53,358 bases of DNA, taken from Nitrospira sp. CG24C. GTDB taxonomy: Bacteria; Nitrospirota; Nitrospiria; Nitrospirales; Nitrospiraceae. The stretch lies in assembly GCA_002869885.2 (NCBI GenBank), contig NEWR02000003.1, positions 1 to 53,358 of the forward strand, given 5' to 3'. Positions 6,197 through 34,508 of the stretch are shown piece after piece (position 1 is the first letter of the stretch; the number at the start of each line of letters is the position of its first letter). The notes under the pieces were generated by a model, which saw only the letters and a program-made list of their open reading frames with translations, did no database searches and was not told the DNA's origin. Position numbers and translations under genes: made by a program.

Positions 6197-6215
6197 TGAG
6201 TGATTGCCACAAGCT

Positions 6216-6305
6216 GGTTTTTCTTGTTTATTTGGTTTGTTTAGTTTATTTGGTTGAAGGAAACTAACCAAAGAAACCAAATCAACCAGATGAACCAAAC
6301 AAACA
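6216..6305. repeat. self-complementary 9-bp-period array (theme A, copy 2)
   Basis: Left arm of GGTTTGTTT-like nonamers, centre GGTTGAAGGAAACTAACC, right arm of AAATCAACC/AGATGAACC nonamers. It ends about 30 bases before rfbA. Confidence 0.85.
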
Positions 6306-6336
6306 TGTTTCGTCGGATAAGAGGAGTGTCTAGAAG

Positions 6337-7071
6337 ATGAGAGGCGTCGTTCTGGCCGGCGGACTCGGTAGCAGGTTGCTCCCGCTCACCAAAGTTACCA
6401 ATAAACATTTGCTGCCGATCTACGATCGGCCCATGATTTATTATCCCATTCAGGCTTTGGCCAATGCCGGGGTTGACGAGATTATGCTGGTTACGGGAGG
6501 CAACAGCGCGGGAGATTTTCTGAGATTGCTGGGCAATGGGAAAGACTTCGGCCTGAAGCGGCTCAATTATTCCTACCAAGAAGGGGAGGGCGGCATTGCC
6601 GACGCCCTGCGATTGGCCGAGCATTTTGTCGACGGTGAGTCTGTCTGTGTGATCTTGGGCGACAACATTATCGAGGGCAACATCGCTCCCGCTGCCGATG
6701 CTTTTCGGAAACAGCAGCAAGGGGCGAAGATCCTCTTGAAGGAGGTCAAGAACCCGCAACGGTTCGGGGTGCCTATCCTTGAGGGGAATCGCGTCGTAAA
6801 GATTGAAGAGAAGCCGGCGAATCCCCGATCGTCCTATGCGGTCACAGGCATGTATTTTTATGATGCGAACGTATTCGACATCATCAAGACCCTTAAGCCA
6901 TCAGGCCGTGGCGAACTTGAAATTACCGACGTGAACAACGCGTATATCGCAGATGGAACACTGACCTGGGATATTTTAGAGGGGTGGTGGACCGACGCAG
7001 GGACGATTGAATCCCTCCACCTGGCCAGTCAGCTAGTGGCGAAAACCGGCGCGAATAAGATGGGGGTATAG
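6337..7071 (+). CDS. rfbA: glucose-1-phosphate thymidylyltransferase, short form
   Basis: Makes dTDP-glucose from dTTP and glucose-1-phosphate, first step of dTDP-rhamnose synthesis. N-terminal MRGVVLAGGLGSRLLPLT is the nucleotide-binding loop, followed by NKHLLPIYDRPMIYYPI, ILGDNI and EEKP, all typical of RmlA. At 244 residues it lacks the C-terminal helices of the ~290-residue enzymes and matches the short form of the family. AGGAG upstream supports the ATG. The stop codon TAG (7069-7071) lies at the edge of a G-rich array. A related nucleotidyltransferase with another sugar is possible, but rfbB and rfbD follow. Confidence 0.85.
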   Translation: MRGVVLAGGLGSRLLPLTKVTNKHLLPIYDRPMIYYPIQALANAGVDEIMLVTGGNSAGDFLRLLGNGKDFGLKRLNYSYQEGEGGIADALRLAEHFVDGESVCVILGDNIIEGNIAPAADAFRKQQQGAKILLKEVKNPQRFGVPILEGNRVVKIEEKPANPRSSYAVTGMYFYDANVFDIIKTLKPSGRGELEITDVNNAYIADGTLTWDILEGWWTDAGTIESLHLASQLVAKTGANKMGV

Positions 7072-7190
7072 AGGGGTAGCGGGGTAAAGGGGTAGAGGAG
7101 GGGGTAAAGGGATACGGGGGTAAACGGGGTAGAGGGGGGTAGAAGAGGGGTAAGGGGATAGGGATAGCGGGGTAAAGGGGTAGGGATAGG
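7066..7190 (+). repeat. G-rich ~8-bp-period array (theme D, first G-arm)
   Basis: Imperfect iterations of GGGGTAAA/GGGGTAGA between rfbA and the four-helix-bundle gene. It has several runs of four G-tracts with short loops, so the sense strand and transcript could form G-quadruplexes. It supplies the rfbA stop codon. Confidence 0.85.
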
Positions 7191-7565
7191 ATGCATTGGA
7201 AGGAGCTTGAAGTCTGGAAGAAAGCACATGCGTTGGTGCTCGCGACATACAGGATTACCAGGTCATTCCCAGAAGAAGAGAAGTTCCGATTAACGAATCA
7301 GTTCTGCCGGGCGTCGGCTTCAGTCCCTGCGAACATTGTGGAAGGGAACGCGCGGCAGTCAACGAAGGAATACATTCAGTTTCTATGTATAGCAAGAGGC
7401 TCATTGGAGGAAGCGCGTTATTATGCCATCCTCGCCAAGGATTTGGAGTATCTGACCCAAACGGACTTTGACAAATTTGAATCTGAGAGTGAATCCGTCA
7501 GCCGTATGCTGAACGCACTCGTGAACGTATTAAGGAAGCGGGGGAAGGCCAGAAGAGAGGGGTAA
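7191..7565 (+). CDS. four-helix-bundle protein of the S23/TIGR02436 family
   Basis: 124 residues. It begins HWKELEVWKKAHALVLATY, then SFPEEEKFRLTNQFCRASASVPANIVEG, the signature of the family first seen as an ORF in 23S rRNA intervening sequences and related in fold to the Avd protein of diversity-generating retroelements. Its molecular role is unknown in most genomes. The gene has G-rich array on both sides, and its stop TAA (7563-7565) is within the downstream array, so it looks like a passenger embedded in the repeat. No 23S rRNA or reverse transcriptase gene is nearby. No clear ribosome-binding site apart from the G-rich leader (AGGGATAGG). Confidence 0.85.
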   Translation: MHWKELEVWKKAHALVLATYRITRSFPEEEKFRLTNQFCRASASVPANIVEGNARQSTKEYIQFLCIARGSLEEARYYAILAKDLEYLTQTDFDKFESESESVSRMLNALVNVLRKRGKARREG

Positions 7566-7890
7566 AGGGATACGGGGGGCAGGGGGGTATTGGGAAGGGG
7601 ATACTGGGGCAACGGGGTAAAGGGGTAGGTCCGGGGAAACAGTGATAGAAAAAGGTAATCCGAACATGGACGTATTACAACGCGACAGCTATCTCATTAT
7701 CCCATTATCCCCATATCCCATTTCATGCCCTGTTTTCATTGTCCGATTACCCCTCTACCCCGTTTATCCCGCTACCCCTCAACTTCCGTTACCCCCCTAT
7801 CCCATGTCTTACTCTACCCCTATTATCCCGTTATCCCTCTACCCCAGGCCGTACCCTACCCCCCTGCCCCCCTGCCCCTTTATCCCCGAG
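7560..7890. repeat. G-arm / 66-bp core / C-arm composite element, copy 1
   Basis: A 333-base gap with no convincing gene. G-rich arm (7560-7627), a 66-bp core (7628-7693) and a long C-rich arm (7694-7890) that is the reverse-complement theme (TACCCC, TATCCC). The core recurs at 9067-9132 with one mismatch. A second shared block lies inside the C-arm (7711-7753). Confidence 0.85.
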
Positions 7891-7898
7891 GATTCGCG

Positions 7899-8933
7899 AT
7901 GCGAATCCTTGTAACCGGAGGGGCCGGGTTCATCGGGTCGCATCTCGTACGTCGCCTGGTTGTTGAAAGCGGCCATGAGGTGGTGAATCTTGATGCGCTG
8001 AAATATTCCGGTAATCGCGCAAATCTCAAGGCGATCGAGACGCATGCCCGGCATACATTCGTTCATGGCGACATCAGTGATCAGCCCTTGGTTGAACGTC
8101 TCATTCGTGAGCATCGGATTGAGGGAATAATCAATGCTGCGGCGGAGACTCACGTGGATCGATCTATTCTCGATCCGGGAGCCTTTGCGCGGACTGATGT
8201 GGTGGGGACCGGAGTGCTGCTTGAAGAAGCTCGTCGTGCAGGTCTGCAGCGATTTCTCCAAGTCAGCACAGACGAAGTTTACGGCAGCGTCGAGACCGGG
8301 ATGTCGATTGAGAGCGATTGCCTGGCCCCGCGGAGTCCCTATTCTGCCAGCAAGGCCGGTGGAGATCTCTTGGCGCTCAGCTACTGGACGACCTATCGGT
8401 TTCCCGTGTTGGTGACTCGTGGCAGCAATACCTATGGGCCGAATCAGTATCCGGAGAAATTCGTCCCGCTGTTCGTCACCAATGCGATCGACAACCAGCC
8501 CCTTCCGCTCTATGGGGATGGACGTCAGTGCCGCGATTGGCTGGCTGTGCAAGACCATTGCGCGGCGATCGAGCATGTATTCCTTCGAGGTGAGCCGGGA
8601 CAGATTTACAACGTCGGTGGAGGCAATGAACGGGAGAATATCACTGTAGCCGAACAGATTGTCGGCCAGCTGGGCAAATCCCGCGATCTCATTCGTTTGG
8701 TGCAGGATCGTCCGGGCCATGATCGCCGCTACGCGGTGGATTGCAGCAAGTTGCGTCGATTAGGCTGGAGCCCTGCCGTCCCGTTTGAAGAGGGACTGCG
8801 CGCAACCATCCAATGGTATCAGGAGCATGAAGACTGGTGGCGGACGATCAAGTCCGGCGAATTTCGCCAATACTATGAACAGCAGTATGGGAAGCGGCTG
8901 GAAGAAGGGGCAAGGATAGGGGTAAAGGGATAA
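7899..8933 (+). CDS. rfbB: dTDP-glucose 4,6-dehydratase
   Basis: Second enzyme of dTDP-rhamnose synthesis, forming dTDP-4-keto-6-deoxyglucose with bound NAD. Rossmann motif TGGAGFIGSH at the N-terminus, STDEVYGS in mid-protein, catalytic YSASK, then RGSNTYGPNQYPEK and the C-terminal RPGHDRRYAVD, all RmlB hallmarks. The frame is open further upstream through C-rich repeat, but ATG at 7899 is chosen because it begins the Rossmann strand and has GAGGA six bases before it. This gives 344 residues, normal for the family. The last residues (about GARIGVKG) and the TAA stop are encoded by a G-rich array. Confidence 0.95.
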   Translation: MRILVTGGAGFIGSHLVRRLVVESGHEVVNLDALKYSGNRANLKAIETHARHTFVHGDISDQPLVERLIREHRIEGIINAAAETHVDRSILDPGAFARTDVVGTGVLLEEARRAGLQRFLQVSTDEVYGSVETGMSIESDCLAPRSPYSASKAGGDLLALSYWTTYRFPVLVTRGSNTYGPNQYPEKFVPLFVTNAIDNQPLPLYGDGRQCRDWLAVQDHCAAIEHVFLRGEPGQIYNVGGGNERENITVAEQIVGQLGKSRDLIRLVQDRPGHDRRYAVDCSKLRRLGWSPAVPFEEGLRATIQWYQEHEDWWRTIKSGEFRQYYEQQYGKRLEEGARIGVKG

Positions 8934-9262
8934 GGGGGTACGGGGATAGAGGGGGTAGGGTAAGGGACGGGGTAGCGGGATAACGGGGTAATAGGGGTAA
9001 GGGGATGGGGAGTACGGGGAAAGCAGAGGGGTAGCGGGATAGGTGGGATAAAGGGGCAACGGGGTAGGTCCAGGGAAACAGTGATAGAAAAAGGTAATCC
9101 GAACATGGACGTATTACAACGCGACAGCTATCCCGTTATCCCCATATCCCGTTTCATGCCCTGTTCTCATTGTCCGATTACCCCGCTACCCCCGGTATCC
9201 CCTTACCCCTCTACCCCGTTTATCCCGCTACCCCATGCGGTGCCCCCCTACCCCGTTACCCC
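8907..9262. repeat. G-arm / 66-bp core / C-arm composite element, copy 2
   Basis: Same architecture as the copy before rfbB: G-rich arm (8907-9066), core (9067-9132; 65 of 66 bases identical to 7628-7693) and C-rich arm (9133-9262). It fills the rfbB-rfbD gap; no gene was found there. Confidence 0.85.
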
Positions 9263-9274
9263 TATTAATATGCC

Positions 9275-12225: not shown

Positions 12226-12249
12226 TGAAGTGTTAACCATTCAGGTAGA

Positions 12250-12325
12250 TAGGCTGAAGGGGTTCAGGCTGAAGTGTTCGGATCTCTGGCCTTCAGCCTA
12301 AAAGCCTTCAGCCTGAACCCCTGAG
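12250..12325. repeat. self-complementary 15-bp-period array (theme C, copy 1)
   Basis: Left arm AGGCTGAAGGGGTTC twice, a GGATCTCTGG-like spacer, right arm CCTTCAGCCT... repeated in complement. It fills the manC-manB gap. Confidence 0.85.
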
Positions 12326-12357
12326 TAGCTACTAACGAATAACAAGTAACGAGGACC

Positions 12358-13758
12358 ATGGGACTATTTCGCGAATATGATCTGCGCGGTATCGTGGGGC
12401 AGGAACTCACCGAGTCGATCACGGAGCAGGTGGCCCGCGCCTACTGCACCTATGTGAAAGACCGTGGGGTGAAGACGATCTCCGTCGGGCGCGATGGCCG
12501 TCTGAGTTCGCCTGGACTCCACCAGGCCTTGGTGCGGGGGCTCCTGGCCGGCGGATTGAACGTGGTGGATATCGGGATCTGCCCCTCGCCGCTGGTGTAT
12601 TTCTCGCTGTTTCAGCTGCCGATTGACGGCGGCATCATGATCACCGGGAGCCACAATGCAGCCGAATACAACGGATTGAAGATCTGTATCGGGAAAGAGG
12701 CGATTCATGGCGAGGAGATCCAGGCGCTTCGCGTGGTGATGGAGGCGGGCTCGTTTGTGTCCGGGGCAGGGCAACTCTCGGAGCATCCCATCATTCCCGA
12801 CTATCTGGCCTATCTCAAAAAGAGCTTTGCCCACGTCAATGCGAAGCGTCTTCATGTGGTGATCGATTGCGGGAACGGGGTGGCAGCCTTGGTGGCCCAA
12901 CAGGCCTTGGAACTTCTGGGCTGTCGCGTCACCGGGCTCTATTGCGAGCTCGACGGAAGATTTCCGAACCATCATCCGGACCCCACGGTCCTCGAGAATC
13001 TCGACGATTTGATTCAAGCGGTCAAGGAGCACAAGGCGGATGCCGGGATCGGCTACGATGGCGATGCCGATCGCATTGGGACGATCGACGAACAGGGCCA
13101 GGTGTTGTGGGGCGATCGCCTCATGGTGGTCTACGCCCGCGATATTCTGGCGGCCAAGCCGGGGAGCACCATCATCTCCGAGGTCAAATCGTCGCAGAGT
13201 CTCTATGACGATATTGCGAAACATGGGGGCCGGCCGATTATGTGGAAAACCGGTCATTCTCTGATCAAGGCCAAGATGAAGAGTGAACAGGCCGTGTTAG
13301 CCGGTGAAATGTCCGGACACATGTTCTTTGCCGATCGGTACTTCGGGTATGACGACGCGATTTATGCGTCGTGCCGGCTGGTGGAGATTCTGGCCAAGAC
13401 CACACAGCCCCTCTCCGCGTTGGTGGCGGATCTGCCGAAGACGTCCGTCACGCCGGAGATTCGGGTTGACGTGTCGGATGCCATCAAGTTCACGTTAGTC
13501 AGACAGGTCCAGGATCGGCTGGCCTTGTGCCTGAAGAGCCGCGAGGCGCTTGGTCCTTCGAAGTCGGTGTTGCGTGATGTTATTACGATTGACGGGGTCC
13601 GTGCCATCTTCGACGATGGATGGGGTCTGATTCGTGCCTCGAACACTCAGCCTGCCCTCGTGTTACGGTTTGAAGCCACCTCACCGGAGCGACTCGCGGC
13701 TATCCGCGCCGTCATCGAAGGCGAGCTCCGAGCCGCCCAACAAACCCTTGGCTGCTAG
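12358..13758 (+). CDS. manB: phosphomannomutase/phosphoglucomutase
   Basis: Interconverts hexose-6- and hexose-1-phosphates, feeding manC and rfbA. All four alpha-D-phosphohexomutase sites are visible: phosphoserine loop ITGSHN (Ser98), Mg site DGDADR from about 234, sugar-recognition GEMSGH near 319, and the phosphate-binding RASNTQP near the C-terminus. 466 residues matches AlgC-type enzymes. Start ATG follows AGGACC with modest ribosome-binding match. Both mannose and glucose activity are likely by family precedent. Confidence 0.93.
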   Translation: MGLFREYDLRGIVGQELTESITEQVARAYCTYVKDRGVKTISVGRDGRLSSPGLHQALVRGLLAGGLNVVDIGICPSPLVYFSLFQLPIDGGIMITGSHNAAEYNGLKICIGKEAIHGEEIQALRVVMEAGSFVSGAGQLSEHPIIPDYLAYLKKSFAHVNAKRLHVVIDCGNGVAALVAQQALELLGCRVTGLYCELDGRFPNHHPDPTVLENLDDLIQAVKEHKADAGIGYDGDADRIGTIDEQGQVLWGDRLMVVYARDILAAKPGSTIISEVKSSQSLYDDIAKHGGRPIMWKTGHSLIKAKMKSEQAVLAGEMSGHMFFADRYFGYDDAIYASCRLVEILAKTTQPLSALVADLPKTSVTPEIRVDVSDAIKFTLVRQVQDRLALCLKSREALGPSKSVLRDVITIDGVRAIFDDGWGLIRASNTQPALVLRFEATSPERLAAIRAVIEGELRAAQQTLGC

Positions 13759-13777
13759 CCCGCGCGACGTGCGAGAC

Positions 13778-14860
13778 ATGCAGAAAAGCGCGACTGGTGA
13801 GACGGTTCGAGGTCCGAAGTTCGAGGTTTCCGGAACTTCGAACCCAGAACTTCGAACTTCGAATCACGCGTCCCGCTTGTCCCGCCCGCCTCGCGTGTCT
13901 CGCGCATGCTTCGTGCTGGCTTGCATGGTCCTGGGCGCCATGAGCGGGATGGTTCCGTGGGCTGAGGCTGGGAGCTTGTCCGACAGTGACCTTTCTACTG
14001 CGGCGAACGATCCACGACCATCTGCGTCGTTCTCGGCCAGAAATAATCCTCAACGTATTCCAGCGAATACGCCTCCGGTTTTTCCGGGCCTGCGGCCTAG
14101 CAGCTGGCCGCACCTCCTTCGCCTCGTCACGAACGGCATTGTCGGACAGGCTCCTAGCAACCTTTCTTCAGTGCGATATTTCCAAGTCGGGGAACAGCTC
14201 ACCTACGAAATTTCTTGGCTGTATATTACAGCCGGCACAGCGGTGATGGCTGTCAGTGATGCCGGTAAGGACGGAGACCGGCCGCTGGCGAAATTGATCA
14301 CCACGGCACAGTCCAGGCCCGCCATCACCAAATTCTTTCCCGTGGATAACCGGGTCGAGTCGATCGTGGATCCTGCCACGCTGCTCCCGGAGCGCTTGAT
14401 CTTCAAGCGGCGAGAGGGGAAGAAGAAAGAAGACTTCGAGTACACATTTAATCAGAAAGAGGGGAAGGTCATAGTTGTCAAAGGCGGGACGACTGAGACA
14501 TTGGAAATCCCGCCTGGCACCCAAGATGTCATCTCCTGTCTCTATTATGCGCGCAGTATGTTGTCATTTCAGCCCGGCTCATCTCTGACGATGAATGTGC
14601 ACCATGACAAAAAGAACCGCGCTATAGAGGCGCGCGTCGAGGAGATCGAGACGGTCAGCGGCCCGTGGGGGGAGGTTGAAACGGCTCGCGTGCTGGTTGT
14701 CATGCCGTTCCAAGGTCTCTTTCTGAACCAGGGCAACATCCGGGTATGGTTTACCAACGATGACCGTCGTATTCCGGTTCGCATGAAGGCCAAGGTCATC
14801 ATTGGGTCGATTGTGGCCGATCTCGTCAGCGGATTGCCGGCTTCTCTACCAACTCAGTGA
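13778..14860 (+). CDS. DUF3108 periplasmic protein with an in-frame mobile-element insertion
   Basis: Reading from ATG 13778 gives 360 residues in a mosaic order: a repeat-encoded leader (themes B and H, to about 13894); a signal-peptide-like stretch ACFVLACMVLGAMSG ending PWAEAG; 62 residues encoded by the 186-bp element at 13970-14155; then the DUF3108 domain from VRYFQVGEQLTYEISW. DUF3108 proteins are exported beta-rich proteins of unknown function. GTG at 13895 would start directly at the signal peptide (MSRACFVLAC...) and may be the true start; neither start has a good Shine-Dalgarno. The frame is open even further upstream, inside manB, but that part is not credible. It lies between manB and fbp. 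Confidence 0.75.
   Translation: MQKSATGETVRGPKFEVSGTSNPELRTSNHASRLSRPPRVSRACFVLACMVLGAMSGMVPWAEAGSLSDSDLSTAANDPRPSASFSARNNPQRIPANTPPVFPGLRPSSWPHLLRLVTNGIVGQAPSNLSSVRYFQVGEQLTYEISWLYITAGTAVMAVSDAGKDGDRPLAKLITTAQSRPAITKFFPVDNRVESIVDPATLLPERLIFKRREGKKKEDFEYTFNQKEGKVIVVKGGTTETLEIPPGTQDVISCLYYARSMLSFQPGSSLTMNVHHDKKNRAIEARVEEIETVSGPWGEVETARVLVVMPFQGLFLNQGNIRVWFTNDDRRIPVRMKAKVIIGSIVADLVSGLPASLPTQ
13804..13905. repeat. theme B array followed by theme H array, inside the DUF3108 leader
   Basis: 7-bp words GGTTCGA/GGTCCGA/AGTTCGA, then complementary GAACTTC/GAACCCA words to 13864, then 9-bp GTCCCGCTT/GTCCCGCCC/GCCTCGCGT words. A matching left H arm (CGCGCGACGTGCGAGAC) lies at about 13761. Confidence 0.75.
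13970..14155 (+). mobile_element. 186-bp MITE-like palindromic element, copy 1 (in frame in DUF3108 gene)
   Basis: Ends are inverted repeats (GGAGCTTGTCCGACAGTG against the complement of CATTGTCGGACAGGCTCC). The centre has an inner palindrome CGTATTC-CAGC-GAATACG flanked by longer complementary arms. It is exactly 62 codons and open in the DUF3108 frame. A copy of the same length lies at 34142-34327. No transposase is encoded. Confidence 0.85.
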
Positions 14861-14918: not shown

Positions 14919-15926
14919 ATGGGACAGTTTCCTCTTACTTTAAGCAGCTTTATCATGCAGAAGCCGGCGGCTCACCAGGGAGTCACCGGGGAACTTGCCG
15001 CTCTTCTGTCCCAGATCGCTCTAGTCGGGAAACTCATTGCGCAGGATCTCAGACGTGCAGGGCTGATCGATATTCTGGGAACGACCGGCGAGATCAATGT
15101 ACAGGGGGAGACAGTCAAGAAGCTGGATGAGATTGCGAACGAAACCTTTCTCAAGGTATTCCACCAGAACGGACTTGCGTGCGCACTGGCATCGGAAGAG
15201 ATGGAAAAACCGGTCTTGCTTCCGGAGAATTGGCCGCGGGCCAAATACATGCTGTTGTTCGATCCCCTCGATGGTTCATCGAACACGGACTGCAACATGC
15301 CGCTTGGCGCGATTTTTTCTGTCGTGACGTCCGGGCACAGCGACCGGATGCCGACCAAGGATGACCTTGTCCGCAAGGGAACAGAGCAGGTGGCCGCAGG
15401 CTATCTCCTCTACGGGTCGAGCACGATGTTGATCTATACGACTGGCCAAGGAGTCCATGGGTTTACATTGGATCCTGGCATCGGCGAGTATGTTCTATCG
15501 CACGAACAGATCCGAGTTCCTACTCGCGGGAAGGTCTATGGTGTGAACGAAGGCAACTACCATAAGTGGTCTGGGGGAACGAGGAAATATGTCGACTATC
15601 TGAAAGTCAACGATACAGCCACTGGGCGGCCCTATAGTAGCCGCTATTCCGGTTGTCTGGCGGCCGACGTGCATCGGATTCTTCTCGGAGGAGGCATCTA
15701 TCTTTATCCCGGCGAGATAGAGAAGCCGGAGGGCAAGCTTCGGTTATTGTACGAAGCGAATCCCTTGGCGATGGTGGTCGAGCAAGCGGGCGGCAGAGCC
15801 AGCACCGGCGCCATGCGCATCCTGGACGTGGAGGCGAAGCAACTGCATCAACGGGTGCCGTTGATCATTGGCAGCGCGGAAGATGTGCGTGACGCAGAGG
15901 AATTCATGCAAGGAAGACGAATGTAA
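14919..15926 (+). CDS. fbp: fructose-1,6-bisphosphatase class I
   Basis: Gluconeogenic phosphatase giving fructose-6-phosphate. The metal/catalytic motif FDPLDGSSNTD begins near residue 114, with ASEEMEK before it and KLRLLYEANPLAMVVEQAGG near the C-terminus, all class I hallmarks. ATG 14919 gives 335 residues, the usual length; the frame is open to 14802 but that part overlaps the DUF3108 gene and is not conserved in type. No Shine-Dalgarno precedes 14919 although a promoter-like sequence does. The aldolase that makes its substrate is the next gene, so this is a gluconeogenesis pair suited to an autotroph. Confidence 0.95.
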   Translation: MGQFPLTLSSFIMQKPAAHQGVTGELAALLSQIALVGKLIAQDLRRAGLIDILGTTGEINVQGETVKKLDEIANETFLKVFHQNGLACALASEEMEKPVLLPENWPRAKYMLLFDPLDGSSNTDCNMPLGAIFSVVTSGHSDRMPTKDDLVRKGTEQVAAGYLLYGSSTMLIYTTGQGVHGFTLDPGIGEYVLSHEQIRVPTRGKVYGVNEGNYHKWSGGTRKYVDYLKVNDTATGRPYSSRYSGCLAADVHRILLGGGIYLYPGEIEKPEGKLRLLYEANPLAMVVEQAGGRASTGAMRILDVEAKQLHQRVPLIIGSAEDVRDAEEFMQGRRM

Positions 15927-15940
15927 ATACTCAGGTCGAT

Positions 15941-16014
15941 AGGCTGAAGGGGTTCAGGCTGAAGTGTTCGGAGTTCCGGCCTTCAGCCTAAAAGCCTTCA
16001 GCCTGAATCCCTGA
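15941..16014. repeat. self-complementary 15-bp-period array (theme C, copy 2)
   Basis: AGGCTGAAGGGGTTC, AGGCTGAAGTGTTCG, a short spacer, then CCTTCAGCCT words. Nearly identical in layout to the copy at 12250-12325. Confidence 0.85.
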
Positions 16015-16053
16015 GTAGGCACTAACGATTCACGAATCTACGGGAGGAGAGAC

Positions 16054-18560: not shown

Positions 18561-18581
18561 CTGGTTGCGGAAGAATAAGCT

Positions 18582-18640
18582 GGTTTGTTTGGTTGATTTG
18601 GTTCATCTGGTTAGTTTCGTTCAACCAAATAAACAAGACA
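18582..18640. repeat. self-complementary 9-bp-period array (theme A, copy 3)
   Basis: GGTTTGTTT, GGTTGATTT, GGTTCATCT, GGTTAGTTT, then complementary AAATAAACA words. It ends just before the ispD ribosome-binding site GGAGG (18641-18645). Confidence 0.85.
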
Positions 18641-18650
18641 GGAGGCTCCT

Positions 18651-19409
18651 TTGGTGGTGGCGCTCGTGCCGGCTGCAGGCCGCGGGCTTCGGATGGGCGG
18701 CTCCGTCCCCAAGCAATTTCTGGCGTTGGGTGGTGAGCCGCTCATCGTTCAGTCGCTGCGAACGTTGCAAGCTGCTTCCGTGATCGACCGGATCATTCTT
18801 GCCGTTCCATCTACAGACATCGAATATTGCGAGAAGGAAATCGTCTCGCCATATCGCTTCACTAAAGTGATGAAGGTGGTGGCGGGTGGCGCCGAGCGCC
18901 AGGATTCGGTACGGCATGCGCTTGCGCAGGTCCCATCAGACACGGAAATCGTGCTCATCCACGATGCTGTGCGACCTTTTCTGACGATCCGGATGATCGC
19001 GGAGGTTGTGGCTGCGGCAAAGAAAGAGGGTGCGGCAATTATCGCGCTTCCAATGCGGGATACTGTGAAGCAGGTACGGGCGGATGGGATGATTGAGCGA
19101 ACGGTCGATCGCGCTCCCCTGTGGCTCGCCCAAACGCCGCAGGCCTTTCGACGGGACTGGATCGAGACCGCCCATGGGAAAGCGCATGCAGAAGGGATTC
19201 GGGCTACCGACGATGCCTTCCTAGTGGAGAGGCTGGGGCACTCAGTGGCGGTGGTGGAAGGAAGCGGAGAGAATATCAAAGTGACGAGGCCTGAAGACCT
19301 GGTGATCGGCGAGGCGATCTTGGCTTCCCGAATCACAGGGAGCGGGACGCACAAGACGGACGACGGTTCGAGGTTCGAAGTTCGAGGTTTTCAGAACTTC
19401 GAACCCTGA
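18651..19409 (+). CDS. ispD: 2-C-methyl-D-erythritol 4-phosphate cytidylyltransferase
   Basis: MEP isoprenoid pathway enzyme. The CTP-binding loop VPAAGRGLRMGGSVPKQF opens the protein; IHDAVRPF and QTPQAFR follow, all characteristic. GGAGG at 18641-18645 fits TTG 18651 or, with better spacing, GTG 18654 or 18657. 252 residues is some 20 longer than usual: residues from about 242 (GSRFEVRGFQNFEP) and the TGA stop come from a 7-bp-period array. ispF follows after 74 bases, the common ispDF pairing. Confidence 0.94.
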   Translation: MVVALVPAAGRGLRMGGSVPKQFLALGGEPLIVQSLRTLQAASVIDRIILAVPSTDIEYCEKEIVSPYRFTKVMKVVAGGAERQDSVRHALAQVPSDTEIVLIHDAVRPFLTIRMIAEVVAAAKKEGAAIIALPMRDTVKQVRADGMIERTVDRAPLWLAQTPQAFRRDWIETAHGKAHAEGIRATDDAFLVERLGHSVAVVEGSGENIKVTRPEDLVIGEAILASRITGSGTHKTDDGSRFEVRGFQNFEP

Positions 19410-19483: not shown

Positions 19484-19966
19484 ATGACGATGCGAGTGGG
19501 CTGCGGCTACGACGTTCATCCGTTGGGACCAGGACGAAAGCTGATTCTCGGCGGGGTCGAAGTGCCTCACAACAAGGGTTTGTTGGGACATTCCGATTCA
19601 GATGCCTTGGTCCATGCCCTCTGCGACGCACTGCTCGGAGCGATGGGTGAAGGAGATCTGGGCCGGCACTACCCCAGCTCCGACCAGCGGTTTAAGGACA
19701 TCTCGAGTCTGAAGCTATTGGAAGATGTCGTCGGGAAAATGCGGGGGAAGGGATATCGCATCGTGAACGTCGACACAGTCATTATCGCGCAGGCCCCCCG
19801 GCTCAGTTCGCACTTAGCAGCCATGCAAAAGCAGATGGCTCACGTGCTCGGGGTCGATCCTGATCTTGTCAACGTGAAGGTAAAGAGCGGAGAAGGAATC
19901 GGCATGATCGGCAGAGAGGAAGGAATCGCCGCGCAAGCGGTATGTTTGATTGAAAAAGGTAACTGA
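19484..19966 (+). CDS. ispF: 2-C-methyl-D-erythritol 2,4-cyclodiphosphate synthase
   Basis: Fifth step of the MEP pathway; trimeric zinc enzyme. Zinc ligands Asp10 and His12 lie in GYDVHPLG and His44 in ALVHALCDAL. GDLGRHYPSSD and the C-terminal GREEGIAAQAVCLIEK are typical. The usual TT(S/T)E loop reads KSGEGIG here, a variant of the TGEG type. GAGGAG precedes the ATG by about seven bases; MTM offers a second ATG at 19490. 160 residues is normal. Confidence 0.95.
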   Translation: MTMRVGCGYDVHPLGPGRKLILGGVEVPHNKGLLGHSDSDALVHALCDALLGAMGEGDLGRHYPSSDQRFKDISSLKLLEDVVGKMRGKGYRIVNVDTVIIAQAPRLSSHLAAMQKQMAHVLGVDPDLVNVKVKSGEGIGMIGREEGIAAQAVCLIEKGN

Positions 19967-19976
19967 AAAGGTAGAT

Positions 19977-20048
19977 AGGCTGAAGGGGTTCAGGCTGAAG
20001 GGTTCGGCCTTCCTACCTTCAGCCTAAAAGCCTTCAGCCTGTACCCCT
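19977..20048. repeat. self-complementary 15-bp-period array (theme C, copy 3)
   Basis: Same left AGGCTGAAGGGGTTC and right CCTTCAGCCT arms as the other copies, between ispF and cysE. Confidence 0.82.
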
Positions 20049-20080
20049 AACAACTTATGGCATGACGACATTCTGACCCC

Positions 20081-24258: not shown

Positions 24259-25024
24259 ACAGGCGCTTCGCGTTCTCGGTGGTGATGCGCCCGATTCGCT
24301 CGACCGACAGATCCGACGCATCGGCGTGAAGCTCCGCCAGTTTTTGCGCGACGAATGACACGTAGGCCGGTTCGTTCCGTTTGCCTCGATGGGGGATGGG
24401 CGTCAAGTACGGGCAGTCGGTTTCGATTAGGAGACGGTCCAGCGGAGCGGTTTTTGCGATGTCTCGAAGCATGGTTGCATTTTGAAACGTGAGAATTCCT
24501 GAGAACGACAGATAAAACCCTAAATCCAGCGCATCTTTCGCCAGCCACGCATCCCCGGAAAAGCAGTGAAAAACCCCGCCCACCTCTGACGCTTTTTCTT
24601 CTTTTAAAATCGAAATCGTGTCTTCTTGGGCCTCCCGCGTGTGGATGATCACGGGAAGATTCAACTCGCGTGCGAGCTGAATCTGTTCGCGGAATCGTTC
24701 GCGCTGTTCCTTCGGCGACGAATGATTGTAGTGGTAGTCGAGGCCGATTTCGCCGTAGGCGACCACCTTCTTATTCTGCGCAAGCTGGCGGAAATCGTCG
24801 TACCAGCTATCGAGGATATGCTTCACTTCATGTGGATGGACGCCGATGGAGGCATAGATGAACGGGTGTTGTTCCGCCAGTGCGACCGCCGCCCGGCTGG
24901 TCGCCAGATCGCAGCCGATGGTGATGAAGGCTTCGACACCGGCTTCCCTGGCGCGGGCAATCATCGCCTCGCGATCGTCATTGTAGCGGGCATCGTCCAG
25001 ATGGGTATGGGTGTCGATGAGCAT
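24245..25024 (-). CDS. tatD: TatD family metal-dependent deoxyribonuclease
   Basis: TIM-barrel hydrolase of 259 residues. Metal ligands: His6 and His8 (DTHTHLD), Glu in GEIGLDYH, His in VIIHTRE, His in GVFHCFSG and Asp in IETDCPYLTP. These match TatD/YcfH enzymes, 3'-5' DNases used in repair or DNA turnover. The gene overlaps the NYN gene tail to tail. Its upstream gap is a theme A array, which carries no visible Shine-Dalgarno. In many genomes tatD sits beside metG, but metG is elsewhere in this window. Confidence 0.94.
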   Translation of the reverse strand: MLIDTHTHLDDARYNDDREAMIARAREAGVEAFITIGCDLATSRAAVALAEQHPFIYASIGVHPHEVKHILDSWYDDFRQLAQNKKVVAYGEIGLDYHYNHSSPKEQRERFREQIQLARELNLPVIIHTREAQEDTISILKEEKASEVGGVFHCFSGDAWLAKDALDLGFYLSFSGILTFQNATMLRDIAKTAPLDRLLIETDCPYLTPIPHRGKRNEPAYVSFVAQKLAELHADASDLSVERIGRITTENAKRLFKIA

Positions 25025-25027
25025 ACT

Positions 25028-25115
25028 GGTCTATTTGGTTTGTTTGGTCTGTTTGGTTTTTTTGGTTGAACGAAACTAACCAAATACACAAAACAAACCA
25101 AATGAACCAAACAAC
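25028..25115. repeat. self-complementary 9-bp-period array (theme A, copy 5)
   Basis: GGTCTATTT, GGTTTGTTT, GGTCTGTTT, GGTTTTTTT left; AAACTAACC, AAACAAACC, AAATGAACC right. It fills the aroG-tatD gap. Confidence 0.85.
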
Positions 25116-25119
25116 CGTT

Positions 25120-26178
25120 TTAGGCGGGTTTGGCCACGATCATATCGGCCAGTTCTGTGAGTAAGGCTTCTGTCTCATTCCAGCCGAGACAGGCATCGGT
25201 GATGGAGACGCCGTGGGCCAGGGAGATGCCTTGTTTCCAGGTCTGTTTGCCGGGGTTGAGATTACTTTCGAGCATGAGGCCCATGATGGATTGGCGGCTG
25301 TCGCGGAATTGGCGGAGAACATCGCGCGCGACCACACTTTGGCGCCGATGATCTTTGCTGGAGTTGTCATGCGAACAGTCGATCATGATGGGGCGAGCAA
25401 TCCCCTCGCTTGCGACAATGGCTTCCGCGCGAGTCACGTGTTCGGCTTCATAGTTGGTTTTTCCTCCCCCGCCCCGCAGCACGATATGACGATCTGGGTT
25501 GCCCATGGTCTTGATGATGGAGGTGAGCCCATCGGCGTTGATGCCCAGAAAGTGATGAGACTGTTTCGCGGCGACCATGGCATTCCAGGCCACCTGAAGA
25601 TTGCCTTCGGTACCGTTTTTGAAGCCGACCGGCATAGACAGCCCGCTGGCCATTTCCCGATGCGGCTGGCTTTCGGTGGTGCGGGCGCCGATGGCCACCC
25701 AACTCCAGAGATCGGCAATGTATTGGGGGGACACAGGGTCTAAGGCTTCAGCCGCGCAGGGAACCCCGCGTTTGTTGATGTTGAGGAGAATCGTTCTCGC
25801 GAGTTCCATTCCGGTGGCGATATCGCAGGTGCCGTCCAGATGTGGATCGTTGATCAGGCCTTTCCATCCGACTGTGGTACGGGGCTTTTCAAAGTAGGTA
25901 CGCATGACGATGAGCAACCGGTCGCGCAACGCATCCGCTACTGGTTTCAATCGGTCGGCATACTCGTAGGCGGCCTCAGGGTCATGGATCGAGCAGGGTC
26001 CGACGATTACCAGTAGTCGCTCACGGTCTTGGCCATGCAGAATATGGCGAATGGCATCCCTGGTTTCAACGACTAGTGCAGCGGCTTGATCGGTGATCGG
26101 TAGCTTTGACTTGATCGTTCGCGGCGAGGGCAGCGGCTTGATATCGATGATGTGCTGGTTATCAAGGGGTCTCTGCAT
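25120..26178 (-). CDS. aroG: 3-deoxy-7-phosphoheptulonate synthase (AroG type)
   Basis: First step of the shikimate pathway, joining PEP and erythrose-4-phosphate. 352 residues of the class I (AroFGH) type: VIVGPCSIHD near residue 60, RTYFEKPRTTVGWKG, GARTTESQPHREMASGLSMP, GFKNGTEG, LRGGGGKTNY and the metal-binding DCSHDNSSKD. The end TDACLGWNET is typical of this branch. The N-terminal helix region (about 1-40) normally carries feedback control. It is probably transcribed alone; the stop lies next to a theme A array. Confidence 0.95.
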   Translation of the reverse strand: MQRPLDNQHIIDIKPLPSPRTIKSKLPITDQAAALVVETRDAIRHILHGQDRERLLVIVGPCSIHDPEAAYEYADRLKPVADALRDRLLIVMRTYFEKPRTTVGWKGLINDPHLDGTCDIATGMELARTILLNINKRGVPCAAEALDPVSPQYIADLWSWVAIGARTTESQPHREMASGLSMPVGFKNGTEGNLQVAWNAMVAAKQSHHFLGINADGLTSIIKTMGNPDRHIVLRGGGGKTNYEAEHVTRAEAIVASEGIARPIMIDCSHDNSSKDHRRQSVVARDVLRQFRDSRQSIMGLMLESNLNPGKQTWKQGISLAHGVSITDACLGWNETEALLTELADMIVAKPA

Positions 26179-31791: not shown

Positions 31792-32544
31792 TTAATGGTG
31801 CACATGTACAAGTCCCTCGTCCTGGTGCTGCTGTGCCAAGGTGGTGAGATCGCAGTGGATCTCGTCATGGTGGCAACAGTCGGTTCCCATTTGAATCGTC
31901 ATGTGCTTGATGCCGAAATCTGTGCTGACCCGTGTGCGGATGGTCTGCAGAAGGTCATTGGTCATTGCCGAATCATCTCCGTCGACCAGGATATGACAGG
32001 TCATCATTATTAGCCGAGGTTCGACCGCCCAGATATGGAGGTCGTGGACATTTTTTACGCCGGGGATCGCCTCGATGGTTGCAGCTACGTGTGAGGCGCT
32101 GATCTTCGGTGGGGTCGATTCCAACAAGACGTCCAGCGATTCCTTAAACAGCGGCCAGGCTCCTTTGGCAATGGCAGCGACAACCAGCAAGCTGATCAAT
32201 GGGTCGAAAATGGTCCATCCGGTCAGTAAGATGGCTCCACCGCTGATGACGACGCCCAAGGACACCCAGGCATCACCCAGCATGTGCCAAAAGGCGCTGC
32301 GGATATTGAGATCATCCTTGGCTCCGCGCTGCAACAGGAGCGCGATGCTCAGATTGGCTGCGAAACTCAGAGCGGCAATCGCCATGACCCAGCCGCCGTC
32401 CACCGGGACGGGCTGTAGTAGTCGCTTGAACCCCACGAGAGCAATGCCGAGGGCCGTGAGCAACAGGATGAACGAATTCAAGAACGCCGCAATGATGCCG
32501 GCTCGGTGATACCCAAATGTTTTGGCTTCTGTGGCAGGCCTGGC
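31792..32544 (-). pseudogene. 5'-truncated CDF (cation diffusion facilitator) transporter
   Basis: The similarity begins abruptly at ARPATEAKTFGYHRAGII (near 32544), the conserved loop before TM3 in CzcD-type zinc exporters. TM1 and TM2, and with them the first zinc-binding Asp pair, are missing. What remains has TM3-TM6 with the TM5 site FWHMLGDAWVS and the cytoplasmic domain with HIWAVEPRL. The only start in this part is TTG 32481, giving 229 residues. Upstream sequence is metG 3' end in another frame, so a deletion has probably joined the two genes. Non-functional as a transporter unless the lost helices are supplied elsewhere. Confidence 0.8.
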
Positions 32545-34139
32545 CGTAAGGAGATGGGCGTAGTCACGGTTTTGGCTCCTTGTGGTTTTGATTCGATACG
32601 GGGGAAGAGACTTGGGCCCTTGCAGATCTTTGTCTCAGCAAGCGGCGTTTCCCAGCTGTAGGCTGCTTGCGGCACCGGCTTTGAAAAGTCGAACGATAGG
32701 CCGAGTTGCCGGGTGAGTTGCGCCGCTGTCTGGGGCATGTAGGGATACATGAGGGCCGAGAGCAATCGCAGCGCCCTCGAAGCTGTATTCAGAACAGTGT
32801 TGAGGCGCGGGTGATTCTCAGGATTCTTGGCGAGTTGCCAGGGCGCAGCCTTGTCGATGTATTCGTCGCACAGACCGATGAGTTCCCATATGGCTTGGAG
32901 ATTTTCCCGAAAGGCGAGTGCGCGATAGCCCTGATCGATTCGTTCAGGGAGGCCTGTCGCTGTTGCGGCGATCAGGGCTTCAAGCTCGGGAAGAGCCGGT
33001 GTGCCAACCGCGGGAATCGTGCTGTCGGCGAACCGCTCGATCATGGTGAGGGTACGACTGAGGAGATTCCCGATTCCATTGGCCAAGTCGCTGTTGATGT
33101 TGGTGACCATCGAAGATTGCGAAAAGTCTCCATCCTGTCCGAACGGCACTTCACGTAAGAGAAAGTAACGAAACGCGTCGGCGCCGAATTCGTCAACCAT
33201 CTTGTTGGGATCGACGACGTTGCCGCGGCTCTTTGACATCTTCTCTCCATCCACGGTCCACCAACCATGCGCGAAGATCGTTTCCGGTAGAGGCAGGTTG
33301 AGGGCCATCAGCATCGTGGACCAGTAGACGGCGTGAGTCGTGAGGATGTCTTTCCCTATTAGATGGACTGAGGCGGGCCAATACTGATCTCTGGATGGTG
33401 TCGGGCTAAGGTACTCCAATGCGGAGACATAATTCACCAGCGCGTCGAACCAGACGTACGTGACGTAGTCTGTGTCGAACGGTAACTCGATGCCCCAGGA
33501 GAGCCTTGATTTGGGTCGGGAGATCGAGAGGTCGCCGAGCTTCTGCGTAGTCAAGAATCCCAAGACTTCATTGCGGCGAGACTCAGGGCGGATGAAGTTC
33601 GGATGCTGCTGGATGTGATCGATCAGGCGATCCTGATGTTGGCCCATCTTGAAAAAATAGTTGTGCTCGCTGATACGTTCGACGGGTCGTTTGCAGTCAG
33701 GGCAGAGGCCATTTTCGACGTCTTTCTCTGTCCAGAATCGCTCATCAAACGTGCAGTACCAACCAGTGTAATCATCCTTGTAAATCAGTTGCTTACGGTA
33801 AAGTTCCTCAAGGTATCGTTGAACGATAAGTTTGTGCGGCGCATCCGTCGTTCTGATGAACGCATCGTTGGAAATGTGCAGCCGTTTCCATAGGGTCTGG
33901 AACTGAGGCGCCAGCTTGTCGCAATGGGCTTGCGGGACGATGCCGGCTTTGGCCGCAGCCTGCTGAACCTTTTGCCCATGTTCATCGAGCCCGGTGAGAA
34001 AGAAGACGTCGCGTCCACGCAGGCGCCAGTAACGAGCAAGGACATCGGCAGCCACGGTCGTATAGGCATGTCCGATGTGGGGTACGTCGTTGACGTAGTA
34101 GATTGGCGTTGTGATGTAGAAGCTGTCGGGGGTACTCAT
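32478..34139 (-). CDS. metG: methionyl-tRNA synthetase with an aberrant C-terminal tail
   Basis: Charges tRNA-Met. HIGH motif at residues 21-24 (NDVPHIGHAYT), zinc/knuckle Cys pair in CPDCKRPVE, KMSKSRGN for ATP, and the anticodon-binding helical domain through PYMPQTAAQLTRQLG. A normal protein would end soon after SLFPRIE (about residue 516); here 37 more residues follow, the last part being an out-of-frame reading of the CDF remnant. The ATG is two bases from the end of a 186-bp palindromic element, which leaves no recognisable Shine-Dalgarno. The order tmk-holB-metG on this strand is common. Confidence 0.94.
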   Translation of the reverse strand: MSTPDSFYITTPIYYVNDVPHIGHAYTTVAADVLARYWRLRGRDVFFLTGLDEHGQKVQQAAAKAGIVPQAHCDKLAPQFQTLWKRLHISNDAFIRTTDAPHKLIVQRYLEELYRKQLIYKDDYTGWYCTFDERFWTEKDVENGLCPDCKRPVERISEHNYFFKMGQHQDRLIDHIQQHPNFIRPESRRNEVLGFLTTQKLGDLSISRPKSRLSWGIELPFDTDYVTYVWFDALVNYVSALEYLSPTPSRDQYWPASVHLIGKDILTTHAVYWSTMLMALNLPLPETIFAHGWWTVDGEKMSKSRGNVVDPNKMVDEFGADAFRYFLLREVPFGQDGDFSQSSMVTNINSDLANGIGNLLSRTLTMIERFADSTIPAVGTPALPELEALIAATATGLPERIDQGYRALAFRENLQAIWELIGLCDEYIDKAAPWQLAKNPENHPRLNTVLNTASRALRLLSALMYPYMPQTAAQLTRQLGLSFDFSKPVPQAAYSWETPLAETKICKGPSLFPRIESKPQGAKTVTTPISLRPGLPQKPKHLGITEPASLRRS

Positions 34140-34141
34140 CT

Positions 34142-34327
34142 AGGAGCCTGTCCGGCATTGACCTTTCTACTGCGGCGAACGATGTCCAGGCATATGCTTT
34201 GTTCTCGGCCCCAAAAAATCCTCAACGTATTCCAGCGAATACGCCTCCGGTTTTTCGGGGCCTGCGGTCGCGCATCTGTCTGCCCTTCTTTCGCCTCGTG
34301 ACGAACGGCAATGTCGGACAGGCTCCT
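34142..34327. mobile_element. 186-bp MITE-like palindromic element, copy 2
   Basis: Same length as the copy in the DUF3108 gene, with terminal inverted repeats AGGAGCCTGTCCGGCATTG and CAATGTCGGACAGGCTCCT. Inner arms GGCCCCAAAAAA and GGTTTTTCGGGGCC pair around CGTATTC-CAGC-GAATACG. It lies in the 369-base holB-metG gap, which otherwise holds a theme A array and about 35 bases at 34478-34508 resembling one arm of the hairpin at 40462. Confidence 0.85.
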
Positions 34328-34393
34328 GGCGTGACAAAAGATACCAGGTAATAAACGGCGAAAGCTAGGAGCCTGCATGTCTAGGACAAGCCC

Positions 34394-34470
34394 GGTCTTT
34401 CTGGTCTCTCTGGTCTGTCTCGTCTATTTGGTTTAACCAAACAAACAAGACAAACCAAATAAACCAAATA
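34394..34470. repeat. self-complementary 9-bp-period array (theme A, copy 6)
   Basis: GGTCTTTCT, GGTCTCTCT, GGTCTGTCT left and AAACAAACA, AGACAAACC, AAATAAACC right. Confidence 0.85.
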
Positions 34471-34508
34471 ACGATCTTCTTCTGTTGGCGGACTTTTTCA
34501 GGATCCTG

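Follow-up and report, generated by a model that had tools for sequence, protein, structure and literature searches.

Most descriptions of selfish DNA read in frame within bacterial proteins come from Rickettsia, and enterobacteria add some fusions. In a review (PMC10969869), in-frame MITE fusions are presented as not unusual and the Rickettsia palindromic elements (RPEs), which PMC2229807 also treats, as an extreme case; nearly half of the RPEs are placed within open reading frames (ORFs) in the same review. Enterobacterial RU-1/ERIC and RU-2/YAPL fusions are likewise intragenic MITEs read in frame (Delihas 2007, PMC2759123, PMC2229807); there the element contributes to the signal peptide or sits at C-termini. 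An initial annotation of a stretch of Nitrospira DNA, made from its letters alone, reported a palindromic element inserted in frame in the gene of a secreted DUF3108 protein, cited the RPE as precedent and knew of no counterpart in this lineage. Literature searches agree with the last point: nothing was found on MITE or palindromic elements of Nitrospira, and among the papers listed no precedent is closer than PMC2759123, in-frame MITE fusions being already in print for other bacteria. The kind of event itself is known. What appears to be new, as far as these searches reach, is its occurrence in this lineage, the tracing of a candidate parent, the clustering of insertions at signal peptides and the series of in-frame decay.

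The Nitrospira element resembles the RPE, as these sources characterize it, in being a small, palindromic, mobile element that forms in-frame fusions in unrelated protein genes, where it is apparently tolerated. To this extent the cited precedent stands. It does not extend to the relation with genes, since close to half of the RPEs are found in ORFs whereas the Nitrospira MITE is internal, on homology evidence, in 6/102 copies (part of the flanking ORFs checked), nor to length, which is divisible by three in only 32/102 copies and thus not suited to in-frame insertion. Moreover, the five Nitrospira cases lie at signal peptides, and the ends match those of an IS1182-family insertion sequence (IS). 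The likeness to the RPE, judged by description, is one of effect, and two RPE traits are absent. In contrast to the enterobacterial fusions, the Nitrospira MITE sits in the n-region of an existing signal peptide or behind it, and is accompanied by empty-site orthologues, in-frame remnants and a candidate parent IS.

The window, meaning the whole stretch of 53,358 nucleotides analysed, comes from the draft genome of the nitrite oxidiser Nitrospira sp. CG24C (G000; 22 contigs, 3.0 Mb). The MITE copy proper occupies 13971..14154 on the + strand and measures 184 bp, with 182 bp between GAG and CTC; the initial annotation, which gave 13970-14155, was right to within a base. Its terminal inverted repeats match the 18-mer GGAGCCTGTCCGACATTG at 13971..13988 (+, two mismatches) and at 14137..14154 (-, one mismatch), and a central hairpin, CGTATTC-cagc-GAATACG, lies at 14054..14071 (+), its outer pair covarying between CG (16) and UA (16) in 32 sequences. 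The right copy of the TA target duplication is found at 14155..14156, and the left copy, at 13969..13970, has probably decayed to TG, judging from the flanks of the family. MITE and TA duplication together add 186 bp to the DUF3108 gene, exactly 62 codons, and the frame across them (ORF 13634-14860) contains zero stops, so that both the length and the open frame first reported are borne out. The reported position, between signal peptide and conserved domain, also proved correct: the frame 5' of the insert encodes VSRACFVLACMVLGAMSGMVPWAEA, the peak 11-residue hydropathy is 2.63 before the insert and 0.42 behind it, and the DUF3108 domain (PF11306, E=6.7e-44, residues 190-398 of the ORF) follows at 14201..14827 (+). 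Here and throughout, the term "signal peptide" rests on hydropathy and on comparison with orthologues. An example of an insert-encoded tryptic peptide is IPANTPPVFPGLR.

The start of the gene is uncertain, the frame being open back to 13634. A GTG at 13895 is the candidate giving a short signal peptide (gene 13895..14860, +); no Shine-Dalgarno sequence is evident before it by eye. A TTG at 13976, inside the left end of the MITE, is also in frame and would yield no signal peptide. It had been left open initially whether the true start might lie downstream of 14155. Between element and domain the window offers a sole in-frame start, GTG 14171, which is GCG in the sister genome G013, and translation should therefore cross the element.

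A second copy, 85% identical to the first, is recognized by its terminal repeats at 34143..34326 (+). It is intergenic, in the upstream region of the divergent ORF 32478-34139 and only a few bases from its start; from its sequence we take this ORF to be methionyl-tRNA synthetase. An orthologue of the second copy is present in G013 (L137). The corresponding frame is open here too, as the initial annotation had stated, which is weak evidence considering that 73/102 copies are open.

That the segment is an insertion is apparent from the DUF3108 orthologues. Among 28 orthologue loci, each read together with the frame that precedes the gene, the element is present in the window's genome and in G013 and absent from the 26 others, and the empty junction is continuous at the DNA level in 15 same-genus orthologues, e.g., tgggctgaggtcagcaacc in G023. 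The segment is thus not a conserved part of the protein, the other outcome that had been considered at the outset. The G013 contig begins inside the element and so does not show the left junction. A GTDB scan showed a DUF3108 relative encoded at 55 loci, in records named Nitrospira, Nitrospiraceae, Nitrospirae or Nitrospirota and one labelled Nitrosospira. Element sequence was detected by BLAST at five of them: L383, the G013 contig, has it at the same DUF3108 site, L434 carries it beyond the opposite end of the gene, L391 holds the core only, and in two other Nitrospira records (L404, 2185-2366; L411, 2125-2366) it lies upstream of the gene in a different place, where the open frame upstream of DUF3108 runs for 104 and 69 codons, respectively. 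The DUF3108 N-termini are cut in L385, L434 and L435. In G008 the gene (L039, G008:C129) has an internal TAG and may therefore be lost.

The element belongs to a sizeable repeat family. The genome of the window yields 45 matches, of which eight span 183 or more of the 196 query bases and another two about 157, while most of the remainder cover only the core; the diverged sequence of the window copy is unique in the genome, the next best copies being 90-91% identical. The family was matched in 25/25 same-genus genomes and 2/16 others, some by the core only, among the matches listed. A sample of high-scoring copies, 102 near-full ones in 18 genomes from 140 loci (L001-L030, L061-L170), served to describe it. 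In the consensus the first and last 17 bases are complementary. The length between GAG and CTC is 181 bp in 55/102 copies, the mode, and 182 bp in 28/102. Immediately preceding the left end stands CTAG in 47/102 and TTAG in 25/102, and TA flanks both sides in 48/102. Once the remaining bases of the target duplication are counted, a copy of modal length adds 185 bp net, which would shift a reading frame, and the 32/102 copies whose net length is divisible by three correspond to chance; the in-frame fit is accidental and no property of the element. The DUF3108-type frame is open in as many as 73/102 copies because all derive from one consensus, itself open (three of its six frames are stop-free), and an open frame alone is therefore weak evidence.

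Being short and multicopy, with terminal inverted repeats and no transposase gene, and showing TA duplication together with empty sites for the DUF3108, cupredoxin, S58 and Tll0287-like genes, the element is classified as a MITE. An Rfam search returned no match within it and one sub-threshold match just beside it. When the alignment was folded, covariation contributed only -0.84 kcal/mol, and no structured RNA is therefore claimed. At window 14024-14101 lies the MITE core, which is also present in a palindromic family of shorter elements that end differently (CAGGATGCTCAAAAAG...; L012-L015, L017-L030), so that two element families have one core. In the shorter family the central stem varies with apparent compensation, and this family accounts for most of the weaker matches in the window's genome. 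A 121-bp internally deleted derivative of the MITE was also observed (L439, G014:C168:6219-6339).

A candidate parent was traced by an end search in G014 and G042, which gave one full IS of 1,596 bp (G014:C96:1594-3189). Its inverted ends are perfect over 19 bp, 18 of which are common to the MITE on both sides, and it is flanked by CTA and TAG, the same CTAG target. Its transposase of 455 aa belongs to the IS1182 family (NF033551, 4.1e-111; PF01609, PF13751, PF05598). The MITE thus shares ends, target and TA flanks with this IS but has no transposase, no convincing similarity to it apart from the ends, and a core that recurs in the shorter repeat family. Since only the ends align convincingly, "IS1182-mobilised" is a safer wording than one that derives the interior from IS1182. 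No end pair of the IS type was seen in the window's own genome. Transposases with PF13358 (IS630-type; 30 loci examined, 41 matches listed) and with PF13340 (DUF4096-type; 18 loci) were rejected as parents, being without a matching end pair; the end pairs in the loci examined at that point were neighbouring MITEs or chance matches.

Copies in other genes were sought as ORFs spanning a copy, followed by orthologues found through homology. In-frame copies are present in at least five unrelated genes for exported proteins: those of the DUF3108 protein, a cupredoxin, a HEAT-repeat protein, an S58 peptidase and a Tll0287-like protein. Each has a hydrophobic signal-peptide stretch, and the insert lies in the n-region in two of them and directly behind the stretch in three. 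For the cupredoxin (PF13473), 7/24 loci read carry an insert or remnant and 17 none. In G014, G015 and G008 a full insert immediately follows the signal-peptide stretch, remnants are present in G006, G045 and G004, and G042 has an assembly gap inside the insert; relative to the empty form, the net inserts measure 186, 186, 189, 33, 60 and 60 nt in G014, G015, G008, G006, G045 and G004. The HEAT-repeat gene (PF13646; 28 loci read) has a full insert of 183 nt in G042, a 24-nt scar of both MITE ends in G023 and a more diverged scar of 27 nt in G000 and G013; G043 has 27 extra nt whose left end is unlike the MITE end. The site is empty in G015, G006, G014 and G020 as measured, and looks empty in G005, G008, G019 and G003 on reading of the loci. 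In the S58 peptidase gene (PF03576) the insert occupies the signal-peptide n-region in G041, G044 and G007 (3/25 loci read), with matching empty forms MSVRPLRS/NSTAPLA in G047 and MSVRLLRS/NSTAPLA in G019. In the Tll0287-like gene (PF11845) of the window's genome the insert follows codon 4, where the sister G017 holds an intact CCTAGG. For these two n-region genes a start inside or behind the insert is possible.

The carriers are scattered. A four-gene tree showed them to be non-monophyletic for three genes: G047 stands among the S58 carriers yet is without the S58 insert, the 60-nt cupredoxin remnant is common to G004 and the distant G045, and G015, empty in the HEAT gene, is sister to the scar-bearing G023. 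Loss or recombination must therefore be invoked. At the S58 locus (L245, L246, L247) the identity between G041 and G007 drops from mostly 95-100% to 72-92%, and this sharp change suggests recombination near the insert or a chimeric assembly.

Internal copies backed by homology number 6/102, at four loci (L061; L091, L103, L122; L073; L003). Joining of the flanks at 99 well-flanked copies revealed 22 spanning ORFs at 19 loci. Beyond the known cases, two seemed genuine: a gene with a PIN domain (PF01850) at L142 and, at L139, the 5' region of a TPR lipoprotein. At L142 the 181-bp copy breaks the frame, but the MITE end offers an ATG (MSDRLL) at the new N-terminus. The ATG offered by the MITE end AATGTCGGACAGGCTCCTA seemingly serves as a new start, MSDRLL..., in L118, L230 (a CxxCxxCC gene) and L142 alike. 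MITE ends also form new C-terminal tails in a class-III aminotransferase (L069), a hydrolase (L092) and a response regulator (L147). Because terminal fusions thus also affect cytosolic proteins (PIN, response regulator, class-III aminotransferase), a restriction to export signals applies only to the five internal cases that homology backs. Wherever an internal insertion has empty orthologues, it is a signal-peptide case, with part of the flanking ORFs checked; this is a pattern and not yet a statistic. Spanning ORFs that were antisense, upstream-only or unsupported were set aside (L064, L067, L068, L110, L111, L133, L138, L141, L147 and L167 on the + strand, L226, L227, L229), and L139 (TPR), L150, L167 (HbpS-like), L231 (Slp), L232, L233 (TIG) and L241 (SBP_bac_3) were ambiguous and were not counted.

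Evidence on translation comes from changes that followed insertion. In the cupredoxin genes the later length changes are +3 (G008), -153 (G006) and -126 (G045 and G004, counted once), and in the HEAT gene -159 and 3 (24 versus 27 nt). All five are multiples of three, which at 1/3 each has a probability of about 0.004, assuming independence, and which argues that the cupredoxin and HEAT genes are translated across the insert. The count includes only orthologues found by homology in these two genes; that all five in-gene loci are in frame did not serve as a test, the loci having been found via open frames.

Selection on the inserted residues was assessed from substitutions at codon positions 1, 2 and 3, in pairs that are non-independent. 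In the cupredoxin, insert and mature part show 1, 7, 2 and 9, 5, 16 changes for G014/G015, 4, 6, 4 and 10, 9, 19 for G014/G008, and 3, 7, 4 and 13, 10, 29 for G015/G008. For the S58 peptidase the figures are 4, 6, 3 and 11, 6, 45 (G041/G044), 4, 6, 3 and 31, 13, 104 (G007/G044), and 0, 1, 0 and 25, 9, 88 (G041/G007), and for DUF3108 they are 1, 0, 1 and 4, 12, 24 (G000/G013). A third-position excess is clear in the mature parts and absent from the inserts compared. AlphaFold2, run with 31 of the 36 intended alignment rows (L388, L389, L395, L406 and L393 left out), gave the DUF3108 insert a pLDDT of 22-27 and no secondary structure, and the domain mostly 61-89 with two lower blocks. This is weak support, because only one other row has the insert, and the low values arise partly because the alignment is without homologues of it. 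Single-sequence structure prediction gave a mean pLDDT of 31 and no usable model.

The reading that we favour, and hold to be probable, is that selfish MITE DNA with IS1182-type ends is translated in frame and tolerated as a disordered periplasmic linker. An IS1182-type transposase would move short non-autonomous elements into CTAG or TTAG sites, duplicating TA. At the boundary of signal peptide and mature protein in the DUF3108 gene, a 184-bp copy landed in a common ancestor of G013 and the species of the window. Since 186 bp were added and the local frame has no stop, the protein would be translated across the element. Behind the export signal, presumably cleaved, 62 mostly small, Pro- and Ser-rich residues would form an unstructured, functionless N-terminal linker in the periplasm, and they are probably harmless. 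Parallel events occurred at the signal peptides of the cupredoxin, HEAT-repeat, S58 and Tll0287-like proteins, and in two of these in-frame deletions later shrank the insert. The sequences themselves establish the repeat family, the insertion with its empty sites, the ends common to MITE and IS, the frame and the missing third-position bias; movement by the IS1182-type transposase, translation, signal cleavage and the want of a function are deduced from them. Transposition would be a matter of chance followed by selection, with internal copies surviving where an extra linker does no harm.

The most serious competitor, which we regard as rather unlikely, is that a start behind the element is used or the gene has decayed, the open frame across the MITE being coincidental. 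Frames are open in most copies regardless, the GTG at 13895 has no evident Shine-Dalgarno sequence, and in-frame starts exist behind the element (14171) and at its left end (13976); however, the former is lost in G013, and either would cost the protein the signal peptide that its orthologues have. A decayed gene is at odds with the selection visible in the DUF3108 domain (4, 12, 24), and the multiples of three among later indels of the cupredoxin and HEAT genes need translation across the insert. It has also to be considered that the insert was domesticated as a useful linker or propeptide, for instance by keeping the domain at a distance from the envelope or by delaying cleavage. It has been kept stop-free in two species for DUF3108, three for S58 and several for the cupredoxin, and the DUF3108 inserts of G000 and G013 differ at 2/177 sites, compared with 40/699 in the mature part. 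Such low divergence has neighbours in the same locus, however, where identity windows range from 82 to 100%, and the missing third-position excess, the repeated in-frame shrinkage and the apparent loss in relatives make domestication distinctly improbable.

A protein-coding palindrome of the Rickettsia type, adapted to in-frame insertion, would account for a palindromic, mobile element with TA at its ends that is found in frame in several genes and has three stop-free consensus frames, but the commonest copy (181 bp) nets a frame-shifting 185 bp, lengths fit in only a third or so of copies, and very few are internal to genes on homology evidence; we give this view very little credence. Least credible of all is an assembly artefact that misplaced a repeat into the DUF3108 gene. 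The assemblies are of metagenome type and the G013 contig ends in the element, yet the right-hand junction is the same in two assemblies, the diverged element sequence occurs at no other place in the genome, and the parallel gene cases stem from many assemblies.

Tolerance of translated MITE DNA as a linker, the reading preferred here, can be extended tentatively. In Nitrospira, the signal peptide and the boundary between it and the mature protein may offer MITE DNA a safe harbour, so that it enters exported proteins time and again as new N-terminal linkers, to be trimmed by in-frame deletion to short two-end scars (RSLS..GQAP), and some linkers might come to serve as propeptide or envelope spacer; we consider this generalization doubtful enough to be offered only as a proposal. 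At several genes, one environmental lineage presents the whole series, from candidate parent IS and intact CTAG target through full inserts and partial in-frame deletions to scars, and comparison alone can test where proteins tolerate mobile elements and how inserts decay. As an aid to annotation, stretches such as SLSD...VGQAP or MSDRLL in Nitrospira proteins can be recognized as transposon ends.

Other repeats were observed in the window. An intergenic repeat of the GTTCGAAGTTCGAGG type lies at 13800-13905 and recurs at 19361, 21346, 23593, 31684 and 49219. It overlaps the likely DUF3108 start, and the n-region of the signal peptide is therefore partly made of another repeat; in G020 the start region of the gene consists, by eye, of an AACCAAA-type repeat instead. 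Further intergenic families are of the AACCAAA/TTTGGTT, GGGGTA and CCTTCAGCCTGAA types. A first group of these further repeats is located at 1946-2059, 6214-6309, 18580-18640, 25017-25130 and 34392-34487, a second at 7056-9264, and a third at 12234-12343, 15924-16033 and 19960-20069.
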